Below are positions 8,370 to 62,345 of a stretch of 64,000 nucleotides of DNA, piece after piece. Numbering within the stretch: the stretch's first letter is position 1; every line of letters begins with the position of its first letter. Made by a program: the position numbers and the translations under genes. The notes under the pieces are model-generated. The model did no database searches. It had not been told where the DNA came from and saw nothing but the letters and a program-made list of their open reading frames with translations. This DNA comes from Cutibacterium namnetense (lineage in GTDB: Bacteria; Actinomycetota; Actinomycetes; Propionibacteriales; Propionibacteriaceae): contig NZ_LWHO01000001.1 in the NCBI RefSeq assembly GCF_001642025.1, positions 62,001 to 126,000 of the forward strand, in the 5' to 3' direction.

Positions 8370-11300
8370 ATGGGCTTCATGGTCACTCAAGCTCACATGG
8401 ATTCCGTGAATCTACGACTGGCGCTCAACGGTCTGTCACTGCCGACGGTCGCGCGCGCTTCCTACATTGACGTTGTCGCCCCAGTCTTAGCCCGACAGCG
8501 AGAGCTAAGGAGGGAGCTTCCCGAGCTCCTTTGTCCAGCCGACCGTCGTATCCAGACATTCATCGACCGCTACCTAGGCGAGGACTCCCCGGTCCACCCC
8601 CGACTGCCCGAAACCACCTTGACTCTTGACGAGCCCGGTCTCGCTCGTGCACTTTCATTACCCGTCGACGGCGACGATTTCAGTTCCGACCTTGTCTCGA
8701 GCTACCGAGTGGCCAATGGAGTACTGCACAACCCGCGTAATGACCGGCGCACCACTGCTGGCGTATTCCATGTCGCCGAGGGCGGGCTGGCTATCCCCGA
8801 CGACAAGAAGGCCGTCCCGATCGACGTCTTCGCCCGTCTGCTCGACCTTGCCTTCCAGGCCCCGCCCGAGCACACTCTGCTGCCTTACACTTCCACCCAA
8901 CCGGTCGACCGCCAGGCCCACACCTGGGTTTCTCTGCTGCTGAGGCCCCTGGTGGTGCCCGAAGTGCCTGGCTTCGTCTCCGAGCGCCGCATGGAGATCC
9001 GGTTCTTCGCCCCCGGCGGGCTGGTCTCGAACCTGGACTTCGTGGAGGGGATTTTTGGCAACAGCGGTGATCCCCTTCTGCCCGCCAACGACTCGGCCCT
9101 CGCCCCGTCGGGTTGGACTGGCCACAGCGGTTGCATCATTCTCGCCCCGCACCTAAACCTTATCCGCAAGGTGGACCTTGATCTGCCCCACATTGACCAG
9201 GCGACCGACCGTCAGCGTCGCGACGGGATGTGTTGGTCTGACGAGTCTGAGCTCTACAACGAGGGCAAGCCGTTCAAGCTGTGTGCCCGTGATGAGTCCG
9301 GGGTCATCCTCACCATCGTTGCCGACAATTACTTCGGCTACTGCAAGAAGGAGGTCAAAACCCAGATTTCCTACTCAGCTAACTTGTTCGGCCTGGCCGA
9401 GGAGGAACATTCCGGCGGCGCTCGCGCCTATATCTCCCACAACGAGGGCCAGGAATATGCCACCCCAGTCTGCGACCAGACAGTTTCCGACATCGTCATG
9501 GCCAATCCGGATCATTTCGAGATGCTCAAGGACGGTCAGGCCCGGGTACTCGATATTGACGACGTCATCCTCGTGCCGGGTGGCGCTAAGTTCAGCCTAC
9601 GTGACGGCACGGTCAGCTGGGACGATGGTGACCACTCCATCCGAATGCGCGCCGACACCGAGTATGTCTCCCCCGCCGGCTATCGGATGCGCATGGTTCA
9701 CAATGATGCCGACGACCAGTGGTACCTCGAGGGCACCTACGGCGATTCGACGACCTTGCACAAGTGCTGCACGGTCTCCGGTGGTGGAAAGTCGGAGATC
9801 TCCAAGGCCATCTCGGACACCTTCCTATGGGGCAATGCCTACTCTCCAGATTTCGAGGCCGACATGGATGCCATCGATGACATCCTGCATCGGGATTTCT
9901 CGACGCGGTTCGCCGATCCCGAGCTCAACGGTATCGACCACCGTCCGATCCTCTCGACGGAGCGTTCGGTGGGTTCGGTCATCAAGCTCCTCACCCCGTC
10001 CTCGGACTTCACCGACTGGTACAACGATTGGATCAACTCGATTCCGGCCTTCCGCAAGGAGCTGATCTTCACCATCAAGCGCTACTACAAACCGGAATGG
10101 GGTGACGACTGGCGCTCCCACTTCAGCGTCGCTCCTACGAACGGTCGGCACGGCAACATGGTCCGACTCGACGGCCAGAAGGTGCTAGTGAGCATGGCGC
10201 GCGTGGGGTTCCAGCCCGACGGTGCCTGGCGGCTGTTCACCCTGCGCCACGACTACGCCCCGGCCGTCAAGGTGCAGACCGAAGACGATATGACAGCATC
10301 AATCGTCACCTCTCCGGGCATGGTCACCGGCCCTGAAGGCCTGTCACGCAAAGTCGTCGCCAACTGCGAGGCGCTGCTCTTCCAGCGCCCCGACGACGCC
10401 ATTTACCGCGGGTACGACACTCAGACCGAGCGTGATATGAGCGGGCAAGACTTGTTCATCTCGAACTACCAACCGCTGACTCGCGAGGACGTCAGGGCAA
10501 TGCGTGACGACGTAGTGGCCTTCTCAAAGTTCACCCCACCGATGCGCACGTTCCTGTCGGACTTCGCCGACTCCGACCCTTCGAAGGAGCCAAAGTTCGT
10601 CGTTTCCAGCGCCGATCCTCGTCTCATCGACGGGGTGCGCTCGCGCAATCCGCGCTACCTGCAGGTGCGTCCGGACATCGCCAAACCGCGCGAGACCGCG
10701 ATCGCCGATCTAGCCAGCCACCTGTACCACGGGTTGCCGATCGACGAACCGCTGCCCCTGCCAGTCGACGTGGTCGCCGCCGGGCGTCGCAACAACCCGC
10801 CCGAGGGCAAAATCCCGGCCCTGTGTGCGTACAACCCGTTGCACTATATGGAGCTGCCGGAACTGTTCATGGAGTTCATCTCCTCGATGACTGGCAAGAG
10901 TCCTTCGACGACGGGAGCCGGTTCGGAGGGAGCCCTGACGAAGGCACCGTTCAATGCTCTGCCGGCGGTCTTCGACCTCAACTCATCCTTCCTGTCTTTC
11001 GTGCTGTCGGGATACGACGGCTGGCTGTCCTCGGCCGGATTCATCGGCCCGAAGGTCGAGGTCGCCCACGACATCTCCCTGCTCGTTCCGGAAATCTTCT
11101 GCCGAATGTCACCGACCGAGAGGGACGCCAAGACCCTCATCGAGGGTGGCTACCTGGAGAAGCTGGAGGATTACGACAAGGACGGCGAACTCATTCTTGC
11201 CTCCCGTCTGGGTTACCGCATGACGGAGAAGTTCATGCGCACCTACTTCGGGCGCATCTTCTTGCACCCCGACACCGTTTTCACCCCCGAGATGCTGCGT

Positions 11301-19708: not shown

Positions 19709-19750
19709 TGTGGATAACCCTCGATGTTGGCCACAGCAGCCTGTGGATAA
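19709..19750. promoter_or_regulatory. Two perfect DnaA boxes upstream of parA
   Basis: TGTGGATAA (minus-strand TTATCCACA) at 19709-19717 and 19742-19750, both perfect. Weaker GGTGGAAAA-like boxes lie near 19763-19771 and 20000-20008. They are 100-145 bases before the parA start and may tie parAB to the initiator. Confidence 0.7.
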
Positions 19751-53460: not shown

Positions 53461-53576
53461 TGGGTCGGAGATTCGGGCGGCTAGATCGTGGTGAGTGATG
53501 ACGCCCCCGAGTGTGATCCGCTCGACGGCTGTTGCCCACTGGTCGTGAACATCGCGTACCTTCATTATCCCCAGCG

Positions 53577-53609
53577 TTATCCACAGGATTTGTGGGTAGC
53601 TGTGGACAG
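53577..53609. promoter_or_regulatory. DnaA box pair upstream of the tad operon
   Basis: A perfect TTATCCACA at 53577-53585 and TGTGGACAG at 53601-53609, inside the 250-base gap before the first tad gene (cpaB-like, ATG 53711). It may allow DnaA-linked control of the operon, or be chance. Confidence 0.5.
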
Positions 53610-53710
53610 CGTGCTATGTGCGAGTGGCGCCTGACACTCCGATTTCGGTGTCCACAGATCTTCTGTGCATCTCTTGTAGCTCATGTCAGCGGAGGCATAG
53701 CTTCGCGGCC

Positions 53711-54349
53711 ATGTCCGTGACGACTACTCCAATATCTACTCGCGCAGCGACGCCATCTCCGCGCCTTCGTCGCTCGCCGCGCCTCATCGTCATAGGGGTG
53801 CTATGTGCATGCCTAGGCGGCTTGGGGGGAGCTGTTGCCTGGCATCGCGCCTCGCACGCCAACCAAGTTCTCGTCATGACGCGAGCTGTGGGGCAGGGAG
53901 AAGTCGTTCGTACTGCCGATGTCGGGCTGACATCAGTGGCTGTCGACCGGGCCGTCGCAACAATTCCAGCTTCCCAACTTGACCAGATCGTTGGCCGCCA
54001 TGCCTTAGTTGACTTGTCACCGGGACAACTTCTCGGGTCTCACTCGGTGGGAGAGCTGCGGGTGGCTCCAGGGCGCGCACGGGTAGGCCTCAGACTTGCT
54101 GCCGGGCGCCTACCTACCGTCTACCTACCCGCCGGTGCCCACGTCACCCTGGTAGAAACCAGCTCTGATAAGGACGCGGAACCTGTGACGAATCTCTCAA
54201 CAGTTGATGCGGTAGTCGTCGCAGCTCCCAAAGCGACGAGTGATCATGGCAGCTGGTTGGTCGATGTCGAGGTCGATTCCGGCAATGCTGCCCGGCTGGC
54301 TGGCCTCGCTTCCCTAGACCGCATCGCCGTCGTCGAAAGAGGCCAGTGA
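53711..54349 (+). CDS. CpaB/RcpC-like Flp pilus assembly protein (SAF domain)
   Basis: 212 residues. One N-terminal membrane segment (LIVIGVLCACLGGLGGAVAW) followed by an SAF domain, with the typical VMTRAVGQGEVVRTADVGLTSV and VGRHALVDLSPGQLLGSHSV. In Tad systems CpaB/RcpC modifies or localises the pilus apparatus. The start at ATG 53711 gives a normal N-terminus; the frame is open upstream to 53618. The stop overlaps the start of the next gene. Confidence 0.8.
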   Translation: MSVTTTPISTRAATPSPRLRRSPRLIVIGVLCACLGGLGGAVAWHRASHANQVLVMTRAVGQGEVVRTADVGLTSVAVDRAVATIPASQLDQIVGRHALVDLSPGQLLGSHSVGELRVAPGRARVGLRLAAGRLPTVYLPAGAHVTLVETSSDKDAEPVTNLSTVDAVVVAAPKATSDHGSWLVDVEVDSGNAARLAGLASLDRIAVVERGQ

Positions 54350-55167
54350 TGTCGATCATCCTGTTGACCAGCCCTGGGGGATCCCCAGGCCTGACAACGA
54401 CGGCTCTCGGTCTGGCACTCACCTGGCCGCGCGACGTCATCCTTGCCGACGCCGACCCGTGCCCCGGTCATGTGATCGAATCGGGGTACCTGACGGGACG
54501 CATCCCATCGCGCTCCGGACTTATTGGCTTGGCTGCAGCATTTCGTGACGGTGCTGACCCAGTTCAAGCGATGTGGGAGGAGACCATCCCACTGCCCCAC
54601 GACTCCGAAGACCGGATGGTTGGGCTCCTCAGCGGATATGGGCACCTCGGACAAGCCTCCCTCATGGGAGCAGCGTGGTCGAGCCTCGTCAGCGCCATGA
54701 TCGATCTTGGTCAGGCGGGGGTTGACGTCATTGTTGACGCAGGCCGGTTGGCGCCGCAAGCCCTGCCTGAGAGCCTCGTTGCCCGCGCATCCCTCATCGG
54801 AATCGTGACGGGATCTCGGCTGCGTCAGCTAGCTGGACTATCTATGAGAGTTGAGGAAGTGGAGGCAATGTCCTCGGCAACCACCGGGACCGTGGGGCTT
54901 GTCGTTGTTGGCCCCGGTCGGCCTTACAGCTCACGCGAGATCGGTCGTCAGTTTGGTCTCCCAGTGTTCGGTGACGTCGTCTTTGATGCTCGTGCGGCCG
55001 CGGTGCTATCCGACGGAGAACCAGCGGGGAAGCGTTGGTCGCGAGGACGTTACGCCACGAGTGTGCAAAGCATGGCGGAGTCCATGCGGGAGCGGGTCCG
55101 TCAAGCACATCAAAACATCGCTGGACCTGAAATGCTCAACGCGTCGGTCATAGGAGTGGCGTCATGA
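54349..55167 (+). CDS. CpaE-like MinD/ParA-fold protein with degenerate P-loop
   Basis: 272 residues. MinD/CpaE-type fold: N-terminal IILLTSPGGSPGLTTTALG takes the place of a P-loop, but the signature and conserved lysines are missing (GGSPGLT instead of GGxGKT). ILADADPCPGHV and VDVIVDAGRLAPQAL follow. CpaE localises the pilus machinery; without the lysine it probably does not hydrolyse ATP. Start ATG at 54349; a GTG at 54346 overlaps. It overlaps the CpaF gene as ATGA. Confidence 0.75.
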   Translation: MSIILLTSPGGSPGLTTTALGLALTWPRDVILADADPCPGHVIESGYLTGRIPSRSGLIGLAAAFRDGADPVQAMWEETIPLPHDSEDRMVGLLSGYGHLGQASLMGAAWSSLVSAMIDLGQAGVDVIVDAGRLAPQALPESLVARASLIGIVTGSRLRQLAGLSMRVEEVEAMSSATTGTVGLVVVGPGRPYSSREIGRQFGLPVFGDVVFDARAAAVLSDGEPAGKRWSRGRYATSVQSMAESMRERVRQAHQNIAGPEMLNASVIGVAS

Positions 55168-56642
55168 CAATCGACCAGGCGGTAAGCCGACATACACAAG
55201 ACGCCCCGATCGCCCCACGTGAGGGAGAGGAGGACCTCGCCAGTCTGCTGTCGCGCATCTCCCCGGCACCACACGTATCGCCTGCAACGGTGTCTGTCCG
55301 TCCTACCCCACGACGACTCGAGGCTAAGGGCATTGACTGGCGCACCGTCGTTACGTTGCGTCGGAAGGCATCTGAACGTATCTCGTCGGAGCGGGCGTCC
55401 CACCGGGAACGTACCGGTGTCGACCTGAGCGGCGACGATGTGCGAATGCTTGGCCGGTCGATCGTGCGGCAGGCTGTCGAATCCCACGCCGAGAAATTGA
55501 CAGCTGAAGGGCAAGCCCTGTGGAGTACGCAGACTAAAGATGCGTACGTCCGCGCGGTCATGGATGCCATCTTCGGGTACGGACGGCTGCAGCCTCTCTT
55601 CGAGATCCAAGACGCGGAGAACATTGAAATCAATGGCTGCGACCGGGTCTTTGTGCAGTACGGGGATGGACGACGCGAGCCCGGCCCCGCAGTAGCCGAC
55701 GATGACGCTGAGCTCGTCGAGGCGATTCGGTTCCTCGGCGAATCGGCCAACCCGCCCCGACCCTTTGACGACGCTCACCCCACCATGACGGTGGCGTTGG
55801 GATCCCAATATCGACTGCACGCTATCGGGTTTGGGCTGTCCTACCGGCCCTCGGTCGTCATTCGCCACCACACCCTGACGAGGGTGACGATCGACGACCT
55901 CGTCAATACCGCGATGATGCCCCACCACGTCGGGGTGCTGCTGCGTGCGGCTGTGCTGGCGCGCCGGTCCATCGTCATCGCTGGAGACCAGGGTGCAGGC
56001 AAGACGACGCTGCTGCGGGCTTTGGTTGATGCCATCCCACCCACCGAGCGGTTCGGGACTCTTGAAACTGACTACGAATTGCTCACTCATCTTCACCCAG
56101 ATCGCGACAATATGGTCGCTCTACAGGCCACTGTGGGGCTGGGAGAGAAAGTGGACGGGCACTGTCTGGGCGAGTTCACGGTCGCCGACCTTATCCCGGA
56201 GGCATTGCGTCAGAACCTCTCGCGTCTGGTGGTGGGTGAGGTTCGTGGCGTCGAGGCGGCCGCCATGTTTGAGGCTATGCAAGCCGGTGCCGGGACCATG
56301 AGCACCACCCATTCCCATTCCGCCACCTCGACCATGGATCGGTTGGCTGGACGGGTCGCGATGGGAGGGGTTATGACGATTGAGGAGGCCTATCGCCAGA
56401 TTGCGCACAACATCACGTTCCTCGTGCATGTCACTTTGGTCGATGACACCTGGCGAGGAGGCACCCGAACTCGTCACATCACCGAGATCCGCCAACTCAC
56501 CGGGGCGTTAGAGAATAGACGACCGATCACCCACCTCACCTATGCTGCGCCAACGCCAACCAATCCAGGCGTGTTTCACCCGGATCCCGCTCTCGTCGCC
56601 GAGTTGTCTCGCTACGAGCCGGAGGTGACGAAATGGGTATGA
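55164..56642 (+). CDS. tadA: TadA/CpaF secretion ATPase
   Basis: 492 residues. N-terminal domain, then the CpaF-type secretion ATPase: Walker A VIAGDQGAGKTTLLRALVDA (near residue 272-291), then RFGTLETDYEL, the VVGEVRGVEAAAMFEAMQAG Walker B/Asp-box and GTMSTTHSHSA histidine box. It powers Flp pilus assembly at the inner face of the membrane. It overlaps its neighbours on both sides, so the operon is co-translated. Confidence 0.93.
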   Translation: MTIDQAVSRHTQDAPIAPREGEEDLASLLSRISPAPHVSPATVSVRPTPRRLEAKGIDWRTVVTLRRKASERISSERASHRERTGVDLSGDDVRMLGRSIVRQAVESHAEKLTAEGQALWSTQTKDAYVRAVMDAIFGYGRLQPLFEIQDAENIEINGCDRVFVQYGDGRREPGPAVADDDAELVEAIRFLGESANPPRPFDDAHPTMTVALGSQYRLHAIGFGLSYRPSVVIRHHTLTRVTIDDLVNTAMMPHHVGVLLRAAVLARRSIVIAGDQGAGKTTLLRALVDAIPPTERFGTLETDYELLTHLHPDRDNMVALQATVGLGEKVDGHCLGEFTVADLIPEALRQNLSRLVVGEVRGVEAAAMFEAMQAGAGTMSTTHSHSATSTMDRLAGRVAMGGVMTIEEAYRQIAHNITFLVHVTLVDDTWRGGTRTRHITEIRQLTGALENRRPITHLTYAAPTPTNPGVFHPDPALVAELSRYEPEVTKWV

Positions 56643-57514
56643 GCACCGCACTTGCCGCACTGCTCGGCGGACTTCTCGTCGGGGGAGTGATCATGGTAGG
56701 CGTCGGCATCGCTCCGATTCACCAGTTATCCACAGGACAATCCACAGGCTTGTGGACAACAGTGGACAACTGGTTCTCCCGGCTACCCCGCCGCAGTCGC
56801 GTTCGTGGCCTCACTGGTCTGGGAATTGGTGTCGTGGGTTATGTGGTGACGGGGTGGGCCGTTGTGCTGGCAATCGTGCCAGTACTGGCAGTTGTCGTCC
56901 CTGCCTTGTTGGCTGATCCACCGCGCCATGACCTTGACGTCATGCGTGCCCTGGAACGGTGGGTGCGTCTGGTCAGCGGGTCAGCATCGACAGGTAAATC
57001 CGTCATTGATGCCATCCGGGCGACCCGTCGTCAAGCCCCCGAACTCCTTATCGAACCACTCACCCGAGTGGTAGCCCGGCTAGATTCGCGGTGGGACACC
57101 CGATCTGCCCTACAAGGCCTTGCCGATGACCTTGACAGCGCCGACGCTGACCAGGTTATTGCCGCAATCATGATGGCCGCCGAACGTGGCGGGACGGGGG
57201 CCACCAGCACCCTTGACGCTCTCGCGGCCTCCCTCCAGGAACGCATCCGAGCAGCTCGAGAGATACGAGCTGAGCGCGCTAAACCGCGGATCGTTGTGCG
57301 GCAAGTCAGCATCATCATCGGCATCGTGTTGGCAGGCGCCCTCATTCTTGGCCGGGACTATCTGGTTCCTTACCGCACCGGTGTCGGCCAGCTGCTGTTG
57401 TGCTGCTACGCAGGTCTATACCTCGTCGGTTTGATCGCCCTATCCCGGCGTAGTAAGCCGCGACGTCGTGCCCGGATCCTCCTTCGGCGTGCTGGGGAGG
57501 CGAACTATGGCTGA
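56633..57514 (+). CDS. tadB: TadB-like inner-membrane platform protein
   Basis: 293 residues. Type II secretion F-domain-like: hydrophobic segments (TALAALLGGLLVGGVIMVGVG, VVGYVVTGWAVVLAIVPVLAV, VSIIIGIVLAGALILGR and LLLCCYAGLYLVGLIAL) with the cytoplasmic helical domain between. DnaA-box-like repeats in the DNA encode HQLSTGQSTGLWTTVDNW, near residues 30-48. GGAGG precedes the ATG at 7 bases. It overlaps tadA by 10 bases and tadC by 8 bases. Confidence 0.85.
   Translation: MGMSTALAALLGGLLVGGVIMVGVGIAPIHQLSTGQSTGLWTTVDNWFSRLPRRSRVRGLTGLGIGVVGYVVTGWAVVLAIVPVLAVVVPALLADPPRHDLDVMRALERWVRLVSGSASTGKSVIDAIRATRRQAPELLIEPLTRVVARLDSRWDTRSALQGLADDLDSADADQVIAAIMMAAERGGTGATSTLDALAASLQERIRAAREIRAERAKPRIVVRQVSIIIGIVLAGALILGRDYLVPYRTGVGQLLLCCYAGLYLVGLIALSRRSKPRRRARILLRRAGEANYG
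56726..56769. promoter_or_regulatory. Cluster of four DnaA-box-like sites inside tadB
   Basis: TTATCCACA 56726-56734 (perfect), CAATCCACA 56738-56746, TGTGGACAA 56751-56759 (one mismatch) and AGTGGACAA 56761-56769 lie within 44 bases in the tadB coding sequence. Confidence 0.6.
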
Positions 57515-58409
57515 GTCCACCGCCGTCCTCGCTGCTATCTGTGGGGCTTTGTTGGCATGCGCCCCAATCTTCGTTATTTCTGGCCGCCGTCATGCGCCCT
57601 TGAGACTGTCCGACGCTCTGGCAGGACTGTCCGATCATGGGCGTCAAGACGCCATCGTTGGCCCCAGTCTGGAGGGCGGACGGTTGGAGCGGTGGGGAGC
57701 GCGAGCAGCGATCCGTTGGCCGAGGGTGGTGAGCCAGAGATCTCGTCGCACCCTCGTGTTGCAAGGAAGAACCCCTGGTGATCTGGTGACTGAGAAGGCC
57801 GTCATGGCCATGGGAGGGATGCTCGTCCCAGCCCTAGCACGAGCTGTGGCTGCTGCCTGTGGGGACACTGTGCCGGTAACCCCGGTCGGTTTGGCGATAG
57901 TTCTGGCTGCTGTCGGATGGTTTATTCCCGACACTCGGATCAGATCACGGTCCAAAGCAGTGCGTCAGGACGCCGCCGAGGCCGTCTTGGTCTATATCGA
58001 TCTCGTCACGCTCGCCCGGTTGGCTAACCAGTCAGCTCCTCGGGCTCTCGTTGAGGCGGCGCACATGAGTGATCACCCCGTCTTGGCGCGTATCCGCATG
58101 ACACTGGAGCGCTCCCGGTTGGAACAGCAGTCTCCGTGGGCTGGTCTCGACAGGTTGTCAGACGAACTCGATTTGCCGGAACTTGCCGAACTCGTTGAGG
58201 TGCTACGACTCGATGACCAGGGAGCATCCCTTGCCGCAGCGCTGCGCGCTCGAGTCCATGAGATGAGGGACGCCCACCTCAATCAGGAGAAGGTCGACGC
58301 CCAGACGACTTCGGAATCCCTGACGATCTGGATGGTTATCCCCGTCCTCGTCTTGGGTTTGGTGCTCATCACTCCACCGCTGTTGATCATGGCGGGGGTC
58401 GCCTCATGA
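57507..58409 (+). CDS. tadC: TadC-like inner-membrane platform protein
   Basis: 300 residues from ATG 57507 (GGGGAGG 9 bases upstream), so the earlier in-frame extension is not used. It has hydrophobic segments at both ends (VLAAICGALLACAPIFVISG near residue 15 and TIWMVIPVLVLGLVLITPPLLI near 280) and a cytosolic TadC/F-domain centre with AVLVYIDLVTLARLANQSAPRAL. It partners with TadB to form the Flp platform. It overlaps tadB by 8 bases. Confidence 0.85.
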   Translation: MAESTAVLAAICGALLACAPIFVISGRRHAPLRLSDALAGLSDHGRQDAIVGPSLEGGRLERWGARAAIRWPRVVSQRSRRTLVLQGRTPGDLVTEKAVMAMGGMLVPALARAVAAACGDTVPVTPVGLAIVLAAVGWFIPDTRIRSRSKAVRQDAAEAVLVYIDLVTLARLANQSAPRALVEAAHMSDHPVLARIRMTLERSRLEQQSPWAGLDRLSDELDLPELAELVEVLRLDDQGASLAAALRARVHEMRDAHLNQEKVDAQTTSESLTIWMVIPVLVLGLVLITPPLLIMAGVAS

Positions 58410-58496
58410 CTACGTTTCACACCCTCGCATCCCCGACCCGTTACGGGGCACACGACGTCACCGGAAAGACCGGTGCGAATGACCAAGGAGGTCGCC

Positions 58497-58691
58497 ATGA
58501 AACACGTCAATACCGTTGCTTCGGTCGTTCTACCGATGATGGCGGGGATCTCCCCTCTCGTCGAGAAACGCGACGAGAGAGGGCTCAGCCAGTCAACCGA
58601 AAACGCCATCTTGTTGGTGGGGGCGGTCTCGATAGCGACGGTGGTTGTTACCGTGATCAGGGGCTATGTGTCGTCAAACTTGCCGAAATGA
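58497..58691 (+). CDS. Flp-like pilin (DUF4244-type)
   Basis: 64 residues. AAGGAGGT is four bases before the ATG. A long hydrophobic helix follows (NAILLVGAVSIATVVVTVI, about residues 39-57). The putative cleavage point is after Gly33 in ERGLSQSTEN, with Glu at +6; canonical Flp pilins have Glu at +5. It is probably the major pilin-like subunit. It overlaps the next gene by ATGA. Confidence 0.78.
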   Translation: MKHVNTVASVVLPMMAGISPLVEKRDERGLSQSTENAILLVGAVSIATVVVTVIRGYVSSNLPK

Positions 58692-59068
58692 GTCCAGGTC
58701 GATCCGAGCATCGACAGTGCCGGGAGCGTGGCGTTTCCGAGTCCCTCCAGTGGTCGCTGGTGTGGCCCGTCGTCCTGCTAGTAGTAGTCGCGGTCATTCA
58801 GACCGCGGTCGTCCTGCAAGCACGGGCCACCGTCACCGAAGCGGCCCGGGCAGCAGTTCGCGTGCAAGCTTTGCGAGGTTCGCGCGCGGGTGAAGCCGTG
58901 GCCACCGCGCGCGATGTCGCCCGGGCCTCGAAGGTGACCGACGTCACCGTCACAGTGAGTACGACCGATTCCCTCATCAGAGTCGATGTTGAAGGACGGG
59001 CTGCGGCACTCTTTGGCGCTGCTGTCGCGGTGAGGGGTCATGCAGTCGCCGTCGAGGAGGGGACATGA
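58688..59068 (+). CDS. TadE-like pseudopilin 1
   Basis: 126 residues. N-terminal hydrophobic helix WSLVWPVVLLVVVAVIQTAV (about residues 22-41) preceded by ERGVSESLQ, like the TadE membrane anchor. The rest (VTEAARAAVRVQALRGSRAGE...) is a TadE-type extracytoplasmic region. Minor pilin/pseudopilin of the Tad apparatus, by position. Overlaps both neighbours by 4 bases. Confidence 0.72.
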   Translation: MSPGRSEHRQCRERGVSESLQWSLVWPVVLLVVVAVIQTAVVLQARATVTEAARAAVRVQALRGSRAGEAVATARDVARASKVTDVTVTVSTTDSLIRVDVEGRAAALFGAAVAVRGHAVAVEEGT

Positions 59069-59574
59069 TCTGGCCTTTCTATGGGGGAACGTCATGTCCT
59101 CTCGACCTCATCCACCGCGTGCGGTATCGACACCGCAATACCTGGCAGAACCGACGCCATCGGCGCTACCGCGGGGCAGTTGCTGTCGAAGCCGCACTCA
59201 TCTTGCCTACCCTTCTCATGATTGCTGCGGTAGCCACCGGCGGCTGGCGAATTTCTGAAGTAAAGGCTGACGCCCAGTCGGCTGCCGAGGTTGCTGCTCG
59301 AGCTGGGTCAGTGGCCTCTTCGGCTGGTGACGGCATTGTCGTTGGGCAGCGCGCCGGCCTGGCTGAGTTGGCTGGCACCAGATGCAGTAACCCTGCAATT
59401 GCTGTGGACTCATCTGACCTTGCGCTTCCTGCCGGGTCCACTGGCACCACCTCAGCACGGGTGAGGTGCACCGTCAGACTGTCTGACCTCCTCGTCCCGG
59501 GAATGCCGGGAGCCTTCCACGTCGAGTCGGTGGCCCGCTCCACCCTCGACAGCCATCGGGAGCGATACTCATGA
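59065..59574 (+). CDS. TadE/TadG-like pseudopilin 2
   Basis: 169 residues. After a basic N-terminus the hydrophobic helix VEAALILPTLLMIAAVATGG (about residues 40-59), with the RGAVAVEAAL pattern of TadE/TadG, is followed by an alanine-rich extracytoplasmic part with two cysteines (GTRCSNPAIA and ARVRCTVRLS), which may form a disulfide. It overlaps the neighbouring genes by ATGA on both sides. Confidence 0.72.
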   Translation: MIWPFYGGTSCPLDLIHRVRYRHRNTWQNRRHRRYRGAVAVEAALILPTLLMIAAVATGGWRISEVKADAQSAAEVAARAGSVASSAGDGIVVGQRAGLAELAGTRCSNPAIAVDSSDLALPAGSTGTTSARVRCTVRLSDLLVPGMPGAFHVESVARSTLDSHRERYS

Positions 59575-62345
59575 AGATCTCAACTGTCCGCGCCCGAGTA
59601 CACGGCGCCTTGGCCATGGTTGCCCTCCTCACTCTGGTGGTGGGCTCCCCAGCTGCCCTCGTGTCATGGGGACACCTTGATGCCACCACCGTGTTGCGCC
59701 CAGCAGGATGGCTGACCCCTGACGACGGATCGGTGTTCCTCACCGTTGTCACCGTGATCGGCTGGGTGGCCTGGACAGTGTTCTGTGTCTGTGTCGTCGC
59801 CGAGGCTGTCGGAATGGCCACGAGTCAGCGTCATCACGTGAAGCTTCCTTGCCTGGGTGCGATTCAGGGGATCGCGGCAGGGCTGCTGGTGGCGAGCCTG
59901 ACTGTGCTGTCACCACTGACGCGATCAGCTGTCCCACCCGCTCCGATATCGGTAGTGGCCACTGCGGCGGCCACCCCGCAGCCTGCGTCTGAGGCTCAGG
60001 CGAGCAGCGAGAACGACACGGAGCACGACGAAGACGTCATGACTGTCACAGTTGGCCCCCATGACGATCTGTGGACACTCGCCGAGACCTGGTATGGCGA
60101 TGGCACTTCCTGGCGACGCATCGCCGCAGCCAACCCCGATGTCGACGTTGACCATCTCGTCGCCGGTCAGCGACTTGCTCTTCCAGGAGCCACGGTGACC
60201 GTGCCTGCCGGCCACACCGGCGCCGGTCGCCCGATCGATGCTGAGCAACTCAACCAGATCGCTGCGCAACCGGGGACGTCGAACGTTCGGACTGTCACTG
60301 TCGAGCAAGGGGACACCCTCAGTGGGATTGCTCAGACACAGTTAGGGGATGCCTCGTCCTGGCCAGCAATCTGGCATCTCAATGAGGGGATCATTGCGGA
60401 CCCGGACTCCATCGAGCCCGGTTGGGAATTGGTCTTGCCGGACTCTCCAGCCGAGGACAAGCTGGCGTCTGGTCAGCACGCCGATGAGCAAGGCGGTGGG
60501 CGAGAACGCTCGGCTCCTGCCGAGGCGCCGATCACCGAGAGTACTCCGCCCGAGGCACTACCTGAGGTGGGTGACGACACTGCGGCTACTGTGAATGAGA
60601 CGAGCGTCGACCCTCAAAAGGCTGCCGGGGCGGACCAGGTAGTGAGCATGGCTGAGGTCGGGCAAAACCCGGCCGAGATACTTCGGACGGCACTAGCTGG
60701 CCTGAGCTTGTTCCTGGCAGGTGGGGTTGCTGGCACAGTCACCACTCGGCGCTGCCAGCAACTCTTCGCCCGGCCGCTGGGAAGACGCATACCAGTCGTA
60801 TCTGGAGAGCCCCGGCGGGCCAAGCGTGTTCTTGACGCCGCCGCAGATCAGCTCGACGAGTCTGCTTCACCGCAGGACACTGCTGCCCTCACTGACGCCA
60901 TGACCCCGACCACCGTCGTGCTAGGAACGTATGACCCTCAGACGCCGGTCGTGGTGGACCTTGCCGATGTTGGCGGGGTATTAACAGTAAATGGCGCTGA
61001 AGACTTGGCTCCTGCGATGGTTGCCTCGATTAGCTTGTCCCTCGTTGCGGCACCCTGGAGCGGCGGTATCGACATCGTCGCGGTGGGTGACGATCTTGCT
61101 TGGCTGGCCCATACCGGCAGCGACGACGTACAACTCGCCGACGAGGGCGAGGTTGTCGAGGGGCTAGCTGACCTTTCCAACGAACCCAGCGAGTACCCCG
61201 GGACGATCACCAGGGTTGTCCTCTCCTCGAACCTTCTCGACCTTCCGAGCCCCGCGTCCCTTGCTGCAGCGGGCATTGTCGTTGTCATGCCAGGGGTCGG
61301 TGCCCAGGAGATCACCGTCACCGACTGCGACCATGCGGAGTTCAAGGGCCGGTCGTTTACCCCACAGATCGTCACTGCCCCAATGCGTCGTGCGGTTGTG
61401 GAATTGCTTGAGACCACCGCTCGGTCTGATACAGAGCCCGCCCCATGGTGGGAGCCGCGACGAGGCGAGGAGGAGGGATCCGATCCTCCACCGGTGATGG
61501 CCAATCCCTGCGCTGTGCTGCCGCCCATTGATGCCCATCTGCCCGTCGAGGAGGAAACTGTGACGTCGACTATGACGAGTGATGTCGCCCATCTGCCCGT
61601 CACCGGCGAACACGTGCCGTCGCCCATACTGCGGCTTCTCGGCCCGGTTGACCTGCTGGGGGCTCGGGGAAATCCGCCGACGAAGGCTCGACGCCAATGC
61701 CTGGAGTATTGCGCCTGGCTGCTGTGTCACCCAGGAGCGCGGTCGGTCCAGATGGCTGATGCACTCATGGTTGCCGAGCCGACCCGGCGCTCCAACGTCT
61801 CTCGCCTGCGCCGTTGGCTTGGCACCGATGACGCCGGTCGCCCCTACCTTCCGGAAGGATACGACGGTTCATTGCGCCTCGCAGACACAGTCACGAGCGA
61901 CTGGGAAAGGCTCGAGCTACTGGTGTCTGGGGGAGTATCGACGGCTCCGCTAGCCAACCTTGTGAGCGCCCTTGACCTTGTCCGTGGGGCTCCTTTGGCT
62001 GATGCCGCTCCCGGCCAATGGCACTGGGCCGAGGAATGGCGGATCGACATGATCCAGATGGTTCGCGACATCGGGGTCGAGGTGGCCCGGAGAGCCATGG
62101 AAATGAGAGACGTCGAGCTGGCGTCCCGGGCTCTAGCCAGAGCTACCGTCGCCTGCCCCGAGGACGAGGTGTTGCTAGTGGCCCGCATCAAACTGGCGGA
62201 TGAACTCGACGATCGCGGGGAGGTCGAAAGGCTGGTGTACGTACTGTCTCGTCAGGCGCGACGGCTTGGTGTGGACTTGTCAGAGGACACCATCACCGTC
62301 CTGCAAGAGGTGATGGAAGGTCGCGCGCGGGCCAGGGTGGTCTGA
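59571..62345 (+). CDS. Membrane protein with two LysM domains and C-terminal BTAD activator domain
   Basis: 924 residues. Three N-terminal hydrophobic segments (to about residue 125); two LysM domains, TVTVGPHDDLWTLAETWYGD (about 163-182) and TVTVEQGDTLSGIAQTQLGD (about 242-261); another possible membrane helix, LAGLSLFLAGGVAGTVTTRR (about 376-395); then a long region and a C-terminal winged-helix plus BTAD domain from ILRLLGPVDLLG (about 685) to the end, containing LCHPGARSVQMADALMV and SNVSRLRRWLGTDD. BTAD is usually found in activators such as SARP. How the domains face the membrane is not settled. Last gene of the tad operon (4-base overlap). Confidence 0.8.
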   Translation: MKISTVRARVHGALAMVALLTLVVGSPAALVSWGHLDATTVLRPAGWLTPDDGSVFLTVVTVIGWVAWTVFCVCVVAEAVGMATSQRHHVKLPCLGAIQGIAAGLLVASLTVLSPLTRSAVPPAPISVVATAAATPQPASEAQASSENDTEHDEDVMTVTVGPHDDLWTLAETWYGDGTSWRRIAAANPDVDVDHLVAGQRLALPGATVTVPAGHTGAGRPIDAEQLNQIAAQPGTSNVRTVTVEQGDTLSGIAQTQLGDASSWPAIWHLNEGIIADPDSIEPGWELVLPDSPAEDKLASGQHADEQGGGRERSAPAEAPITESTPPEALPEVGDDTAATVNETSVDPQKAAGADQVVSMAEVGQNPAEILRTALAGLSLFLAGGVAGTVTTRRCQQLFARPLGRRIPVVSGEPRRAKRVLDAAADQLDESASPQDTAALTDAMTPTTVVLGTYDPQTPVVVDLADVGGVLTVNGAEDLAPAMVASISLSLVAAPWSGGIDIVAVGDDLAWLAHTGSDDVQLADEGEVVEGLADLSNEPSEYPGTITRVVLSSNLLDLPSPASLAAAGIVVVMPGVGAQEITVTDCDHAEFKGRSFTPQIVTAPMRRAVVELLETTARSDTEPAPWWEPRRGEEEGSDPPPVMANPCAVLPPIDAHLPVEEETVTSTMTSDVAHLPVTGEHVPSPILRLLGPVDLLGARGNPPTKARRQCLEYCAWLLCHPGARSVQMADALMVAEPTRRSNVSRLRRWLGTDDAGRPYLPEGYDGSLRLADTVTSDWERLELLVSGGVSTAPLANLVSALDLVRGAPLADAAPGQWHWAEEWRIDMIQMVRDIGVEVARRAMEMRDVELASRALARATVACPEDEVLLVARIKLADELDDRGEVERLVYVLSRQARRLGVDLSEDTITVLQEVMEGRARARVV

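Follow-up and report, generated by a model that had tools for sequence, protein, structure and literature searches.

At the end of a Tad/Flp pilus operon in Cutibacterium namnetense lies a gene whose 924-residue product carries membrane segments, LysM domains and a C-terminal SARP domain, a type known from activators of antibiotic genes, raising the question of whether a single chain could convey the state of the cell wall or the pilus to transcription. The window analysed here is a stretch of 64,000 nucleotides (contig NZ_LWHO01000001.1, positions 62,001 to 126,000), in which the fusion gene occupies 59571..62345; this gene, its parts and the tad genes described below lie on the forward strand, and two arrays of short boxes have no strand assigned. 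The regulation of actinobacterial Tad pili, and the way in which a thick wall holds them, are poorly known, and the widespread family to which this protein belongs combines an anchor with a candidate regulator in a single chain. We give an even chance to the reading in which the Tad pilus operon includes, in this gene, a one-component regulator of the SARP type that is anchored in the membrane.

Architecture of the fusion protein

A preliminary description of this DNA had proposed membrane segments, two LysM domains and a BTAD region in one protein, and hydropathy, Pfam LysM matches and a SARP fold match placed all of these in one open reading frame (ORF) that begins with ATG. Its list of parts overlooked a P-loop-less FtsK/EccC-type domain between the fourth transmembrane segment (TM4) and the SARP domain. 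The complete order, of which we are very nearly certain, is three transmembrane segments, two LysM domains, TM4, a degenerate FtsK/EccC-type domain and a SARP domain made of a winged helix and a BTAD domain. The first three membrane segments (TM1, residues 13–31, 59607..59663; TM2, residues 59–77, 59745..59801; TM3, residues 95–113, 59853..59909) were assigned by hydropathy and are common to nearly all of 45 homologues; a fourth segment after the LysM region, here TM4 (residues ~370–392, 60678..60746; hydropathy and charge bias), is found in most. Pfam recognised LysM in two stretches (E 1.1e-13). LysM 1 (residues ~156–205, 60036..60185) is also seen in the structure model, and LysM 2 (residues ~241–290, 60291..60440; best Pfam stretch 243–290) superimposed on the LysM domain of Kbp over 54 aligned residues at 1.0 Å. 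An AlphaFold model built from the 45-member alignment reached a predicted local distance difference test (pLDDT) score >90 across most of the folded parts, which are joined by disordered linkers at residues 117–153, 209–237, 296–365 and 636–679. A chance fusion and an artefact of splicing or assembly were ruled out, since most Cutibacterium species, and many actinobacterial families besides, encode the protein in a single open frame.

The distribution of positive charge predicts how this chain is threaded through the membrane. Across the 45 homologues, lysine plus arginine per residue amounted to 0.27 at the N-terminus, 0.08 in loop 1, 0.19 in loop 2, 0.08 in the LysM region and 0.22 after TM4, and from this positive-inside bias the N-terminus is therefore predicted to lie inside, both LysM domains outside on the wall side, and the SARP end in the cytoplasm, to which TM4 would return the chain. 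The supposition that the BTAD end faces the cytoplasm is thus borne out at the level of prediction, with no sign of an extracellular placement. Hydropathy and charge bias together predict an extracytoplasmic domain, a membrane segment and a cytoplasmic winged helix in one chain. Membrane-integrated one-component regulators of the ToxR/CadC type are single-pass proteins with an N-terminal winged helix and no BTAD. By analogy only, and if the model is right, the window protein would share their mode of joining an extracytoplasmic sensing part to a cytoplasmic winged helix, although it has four transmembrane segments and its SARP domain is C-terminal.

The middle of the protein (residues ~372–619) shares its fold with FtsK motor domains and with EccC (VIA Z 12–14), with matches to FtsK 2iut/2ius (Z 14), the EccC5 DUF domain 8rin (Z 14.0) and EccC3 6umm (Z 13.5). 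Foldseek agreed with a probability of 1.00, and a profile of the middle domain alone detected FtsK 2ius at E 1.8e-4. Like FtsK and EccC of type VII secretion, residues 372–619 thus show an alpha/beta motor or DUF fold beside a membrane stalk, with the membrane-proximal domain itself at residues ~400–619 (60768..61427); unlike those proteins, the window family has a single such domain, which is joined to a SARP domain and lacks a Walker A motif (GxxxxGK[ST]) in every one of the 45 alignment members. It is therefore probably, as far as model and alignment can indicate, a non-hydrolysing, membrane-proximal platform like the DUF domain of EccC. Since EccC is a secretion platform, this resemblance also favours a purely structural role in the Tad machinery, in which the LysM domains would anchor an assembly platform, the FtsK/EccC-like and SARP (TPR-like) parts would form a scaffold for TadA/TadZ, and the SARP domain would be kept as a protein-binding module with vestigial DNA binding. 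We regard this alternative as a real possibility that falls somewhat short of an even chance.

The SARP domain and its DNA contacts

Database models barely register the C-terminal domain. The window protein gave no BTAD match in Pfam, falling below the curated cut-off, and as a single sequence none in NCBIfam; 12 of 45 relatives matched Pfam BTAD at E <= 0.1, a few of them above the curated cut-off, and a C-terminal profile searched against PDB sequences returned TPR proteins only. We therefore compared the domain by profile-profile alignment and by fold. Residues 684–924 (61620..62342), modelled alone with AlphaFold at pLDDT 94, matched AfsR from its RNA-polymerase complexes (8hvr, 8k60; VIA Z 15.1, 216 aligned residues, rmsd 3.5) and EmbR (Z 14.2), the next-ranked structure reaching only Z 8.9, and Foldseek matched AfsR/EmbR at E 1.1e-5 to 2.8e-5. 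Likewise, hhalign aligned the family C-terminus with 17 typical actinobacterial SARPs at 98.5 % (E 3e-15, 225/241 columns). An OmpR-type winged helix is followed directly by a BTAD helical domain, and these fold and profile matches show that the SARP domain, though divergent, has both its halves. The protein therefore has the two-part fold (Z 14–15) of AfsR and EmbR, which are soluble 'large' SARPs, and shares their DNA-contact residues in helix alpha-3, yet differs from them in that its SARP domain is C-terminal, anchored in the membrane and joined to LysM and FtsK/EccC-like domains, has a helix-turn-helix (HTH) loop shorter by six residues, and scores under the Pfam BTAD threshold.

In AfsR, helix alpha-3 contacts DNA through R87, T88, S91, R92, R94 and K95, with R92 and T88 making the base-specific contacts (PMC10936776). 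Residues R740, S741, S744, R745, R747 and R748 of the window protein align with these six, four of them identical and two conservative, within the recognition helix PTRRSNVSRLRRWL (residues 737–750, 61779..61820). Throughout the Propionibacteriaceae this helix is nearly invariant (TRRSNxSRLRxWLG) and retains five or six of the six contact residues; locus L067 reads SRRSSV (here and below, L, G and C numbers are our labels for loci, genomes and contigs). Because the helix is so nearly invariant and keeps the AfsR contact residues, DNA binding is likely in this family. We are evenly divided on whether the protein acts there as a membrane-tethered DNA-binding regulator.

A regulatory role is favoured by a stand-alone SARP with the same helix, by linkage to tad genes in many families and by a conserved array of sites at the tad promoter. 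Several observations weigh against it. Contact residues are reduced to 0–3 of the six in many other families, even though these keep the fusion and its association with tad genes; Streptomyces-like fusions keep one or two, and some other families outside the Propionibacteriaceae keep four or five. The HTH loop that in AfsR carries the RNA-polymerase contacts E76/E77 is six residues shorter. The stand-alone SARP is known from one genome, in a genus sampled by one species, and the sites of the array conform to the consensus for DnaA boxes and are found at oriC as well. In AfsR the loop meets sigma R4, beta and beta' of RNA polymerase (PMC10936776), so that, judged from the alignment, the mode of activation must differ from that of AfsR, and the shortening makes it premature to speak of an 'activator' even for proteins that probably bind DNA. 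Given the degenerate contacts outside the Propionibacteriaceae, the function that the family inherited and shares may likewise be something other than DNA binding, and the SARP fold may in part of the family be only a protein module. The proposal of the preliminary description that wall or pilus state is linked to transcription therefore stands in part: the predicted cytoplasmic placement, the tad linkage and the contact residues of the Propionibacteriaceae support it, and the degenerate helix elsewhere and the shortened polymerase loop count against it.

The same observations bear on the structural alternative. That many families have lost the DNA contacts but otherwise retain the fold, and that the loop is shortened, would be expected of a scaffold, and so would the constant operon position of the fusion after the TadE genes. 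A near-invariant recognition helix in the Propionibacteriaceae, however, is hard to explain without DNA, and full fusions without nearby tad genes (L064, L066, L164–L168, L181), as well as the stand-alone SARP of one genome, fit a scaffold poorly.

In the regulatory reading, the LysM domains would bind peptidoglycan and so hold the protein at the point of pilus passage through the wall, and the FtsK/EccC-like domain, held on its stalk at the inner face of the membrane, would give the Tad machinery a platform for docking or oligomerisation. If the wall or the pilus changed state, this might then alter the exposure or pairing of the SARP domains, which in the Propionibacteriaceae would bind DNA and tune transcription, the simplest target being the tad operon itself. 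If the SARP domain does work from the membrane, it would be a SARP whose signal arrives across the wall, and pilus expression in Cutibacterium could be manipulated directly through it. With lineages that keep an intact recognition helix and lineages that do not, the family amounts to a natural experiment.

Distribution of the fusion and the tad operon

The fusion was matched in 43 of 57 relatives, and a profile of the SARP domain from the family C-terminus matched 119 of the 296 genomes sampled from the Actinomycetes, covering 44 of 102 genera. TIGR03819 was too general to measure co-occurrence with tad, being positive in 287 of the 296 genomes; 40 loci drawn from the class-wide SARP-profile search were checked for their parts and tad neighbours. 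Transmembrane segments, LysM, the FtsK-like domain and SARP occurred in one frame at 30 of the 40 loci. At least three tad genes were within reach of 22 of these 30 full fusions, two more lay on short contigs with TadE-like genes only, and six (L164–L168, L181) had no tad gene within ~9 kb. Two full fusions without tad genes were also present among the nearer relatives (L064 and L066), and SARP-only ORFs were seen as well (L155, L175–L179, L185; contig ends cut L175 and L178). Plasmid relatives numbered 224 records (Streptomyces, Rhodococcus, Cutibacterium and others), and the two whose context was read were tad loci. The fusion is thus old and widespread, and its place after the TadE genes is the same across families. 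In answer to the earlier question of whether it occurs in other actinobacterial tad clusters, it recurs across many families, usually but not always linked to tad, and splitting of the fusion, which would have told against it, is rare: three loci are frameshifted and another genus has one stand-alone SARP.

Among the frameshifted loci, a 4-bp deletion near residue 437 in C. modestum M12 (L033:10278-10308) parts the LysM and transmembrane portion from the FtsK-SARP portion; the others are in G019 (L056) and in the second fusion copy of G027 (L070). This second copy is not a natural deletion of the SARP domain, as the domain is present in the next frame. Phase variation by homopolymer slippage was also rejected: neither the window gene nor the L056 overlap has a run of six or more, and the longest run at the L070 junction is five. 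The stand-alone SARP, of 250 residues (G020, L185:7359-8111), has the same recognition helix and lies beside the same MFS gene, and has no LysM domain, transmembrane segment or adjacent tad genes, a context that suggests a use apart from the pilus.

These loci also bear on whether signal-dependent cleavage could free the SARP part from the membrane as a soluble activator, an idea that we consider improbable. The long disordered linkers at 296–365 and 636–679 flank TM4 and the SARP domain, stand-alone SARPs exist, and the frameshifts of the three loci part N- and C-terminal halves that are both still open, all of which would suit such a mechanism. On the other side, no protease site or partner was identified, linkers of this kind are common in wall-spanning proteins, and the frameshifts may be decay or error.

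The combination of LysM and BTAD in a Tad locus is not new to the record: PAGK_2369, encoded among the Tad genes that the plasmid pIMPLE-HL096PA1 carries in C. acnes, was tabulated in 2013 with the Pfam domains 'LysM, BTAD' under the name TadB, without comment (PMC3666418, Table 2). As in the window, a single protein encoded towards the end of a Tad locus combines LysM with BTAD, but PAGK_2369 is plasmid-borne, and neither topology nor a middle domain nor a function is described in its paper. All the parts of the fusion recur, at ~29 % identity to the window protein, in a plasmid-encoded relative from C. modestum. Public annotation of relatives names single domains only ('LysM peptidoglycan-binding' or 'BTAD ... 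putative transcriptional regulator'), the M. luteus tad papers make no mention of a LysM/BTAD gene, and we found no functional study of the fusion protein in the open-access papers searched.

In the window itself, the fusion is, as first described, the final gene of a pilus operon, following the order CpaB-TadZ-TadA-TadB-TadC-Flp-TadE-TadE/F. The first tad gene encodes a CpaB/RcpC-like SAF-domain protein (53711..54349; Pfam SAF 4e-6), listed as an ORF from 53618 and assigned by alignment to a conserved ATG at 53711. It is followed by a TadZ-like gene without a Pfam match, recognised by operon position and conservation in relatives (54346..55167), the TadA ATPase (55164..56642; T2SSE 3e-20, TIGR03819 1.8e-43, under the cut-off of that model), TadB (56633..57514; T2SSF 6e-9) and TadC (57468..58409; T2SSF 0.01, conserved in relatives). 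A Flp-type prepilin of 64 residues with the site ERG/LSQSTENAILLVG (58497..58691) emerged from three-frame translation; its gene, under the ORF cut-off, lies in another frame beneath an over-long TadE ORF and has a strong ribosome site, AAGGAGG, upstream of its ATG. That TadE pseudopilin (58406..59068; Pfam TadE 8e-8) probably starts near 58730, and the TadE/TadF-like pseudopilin after it (59065..59574; Pfam TadE 2e-5) overlaps the fusion start by four bases, one of the short overlaps that join most genes of the operon. No TadV was seen in the examined part of the window. Elsewhere, the same genome encodes another ATPase of the TadA family, a typical one that passes the TIGR03819 cut-off (G000:C23:359165-360178).

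Box arrays upstream of tad and inside tadB

Little of the sequence ahead of cpaB is conserved across seven Cutibacterium genomes other than boxes of the type TTRTCCACA and CTTG-N-CATAG blocks. Some direct box pairs spaced 12 bp apart are followed by inverted copies, then by the CTTG-N-CATAG blocks and the ATG at 53711. The DnaA-box-like array, a possible operator (53565..53657), is conserved in all seven genomes and in 19 of the 24 loci compared within the Propionibacteriaceae. When 9-mers were counted over these 24 loci without supervision, TATCCACAG/TTATCCACA came first (19 loci with one mismatch allowed, against about one by chance), and masking this box left no 9-mer of similar standing. 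A second array of similar layout, with two direct and two inverted sites, lies inside tadB (56726..56769), keeps a fixed place in several genera, and in the window uses a TTA leucine codon. Just upstream of the ATG, a putative promoter, TTGTAG-16-CATAGC (53674..53701), overlaps CTTG and CATA(G/A) blocks kept in the seven genomes; a generic scan for the promoter consensus gave nothing above chance and did not call it.

Since the consensus of the array is the DnaA-box consensus, DnaA is the first candidate for its binder and the SARP domain the second. We think it rather probable that DnaA binds the array upstream of tad, for regulation or titration, and that the array is unrelated to the SARP domain, an explanation compatible with every reading of the protein. 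Consistent with this, TTATCCACA itself is the DnaA-box consensus, 12-bp spaced pairs occur at both oriC and tad of the same genomes (in that of the window, with one mismatch allowed, at four sites: the tad promoter, tadB, oriC and contig C24), the distance between tad and dnaA is ~20–130 kb in those genomes of the Propionibacteriaceae that were checked, and no box cluster is near the stand-alone SARP gene of G020. DnaA boxes are general, however, yet the array is missing from the tad loci of other actinobacterial families, where the SARP helices are mostly degenerate; these loci had no boxes with the exception of L159, which has a cluster of five TTRTCCACA-like sites, counted with one mismatch, at its edge (155-314). 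A further point against it is L064, in which three TTATCCACA-type boxes (9582-9636) stand directly upstream of the fusion, 23–54 bp before the start of its ORF, at a locus that has no tad genes, though it is also near parAB.

A combined reading, which we consider unlikely, would have the wall-bound, membrane-tethered SARP protein sense the state of the pilus or of peptidoglycan and control tad through the TTRTCCACA array. As the array would also consist of DnaA boxes, a single origin-proximal promoter in the Propionibacteriaceae would then bring together pilus production, wall state and the initiation of replication.

Elsewhere, the spaced pair on contig C24 lies at G000:C24:109557-109576, with a near-identical pair once each in G003 and G005. 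Within the window, two perfect TTATCCACA sites are found at 19709-19750, just upstream of parA.

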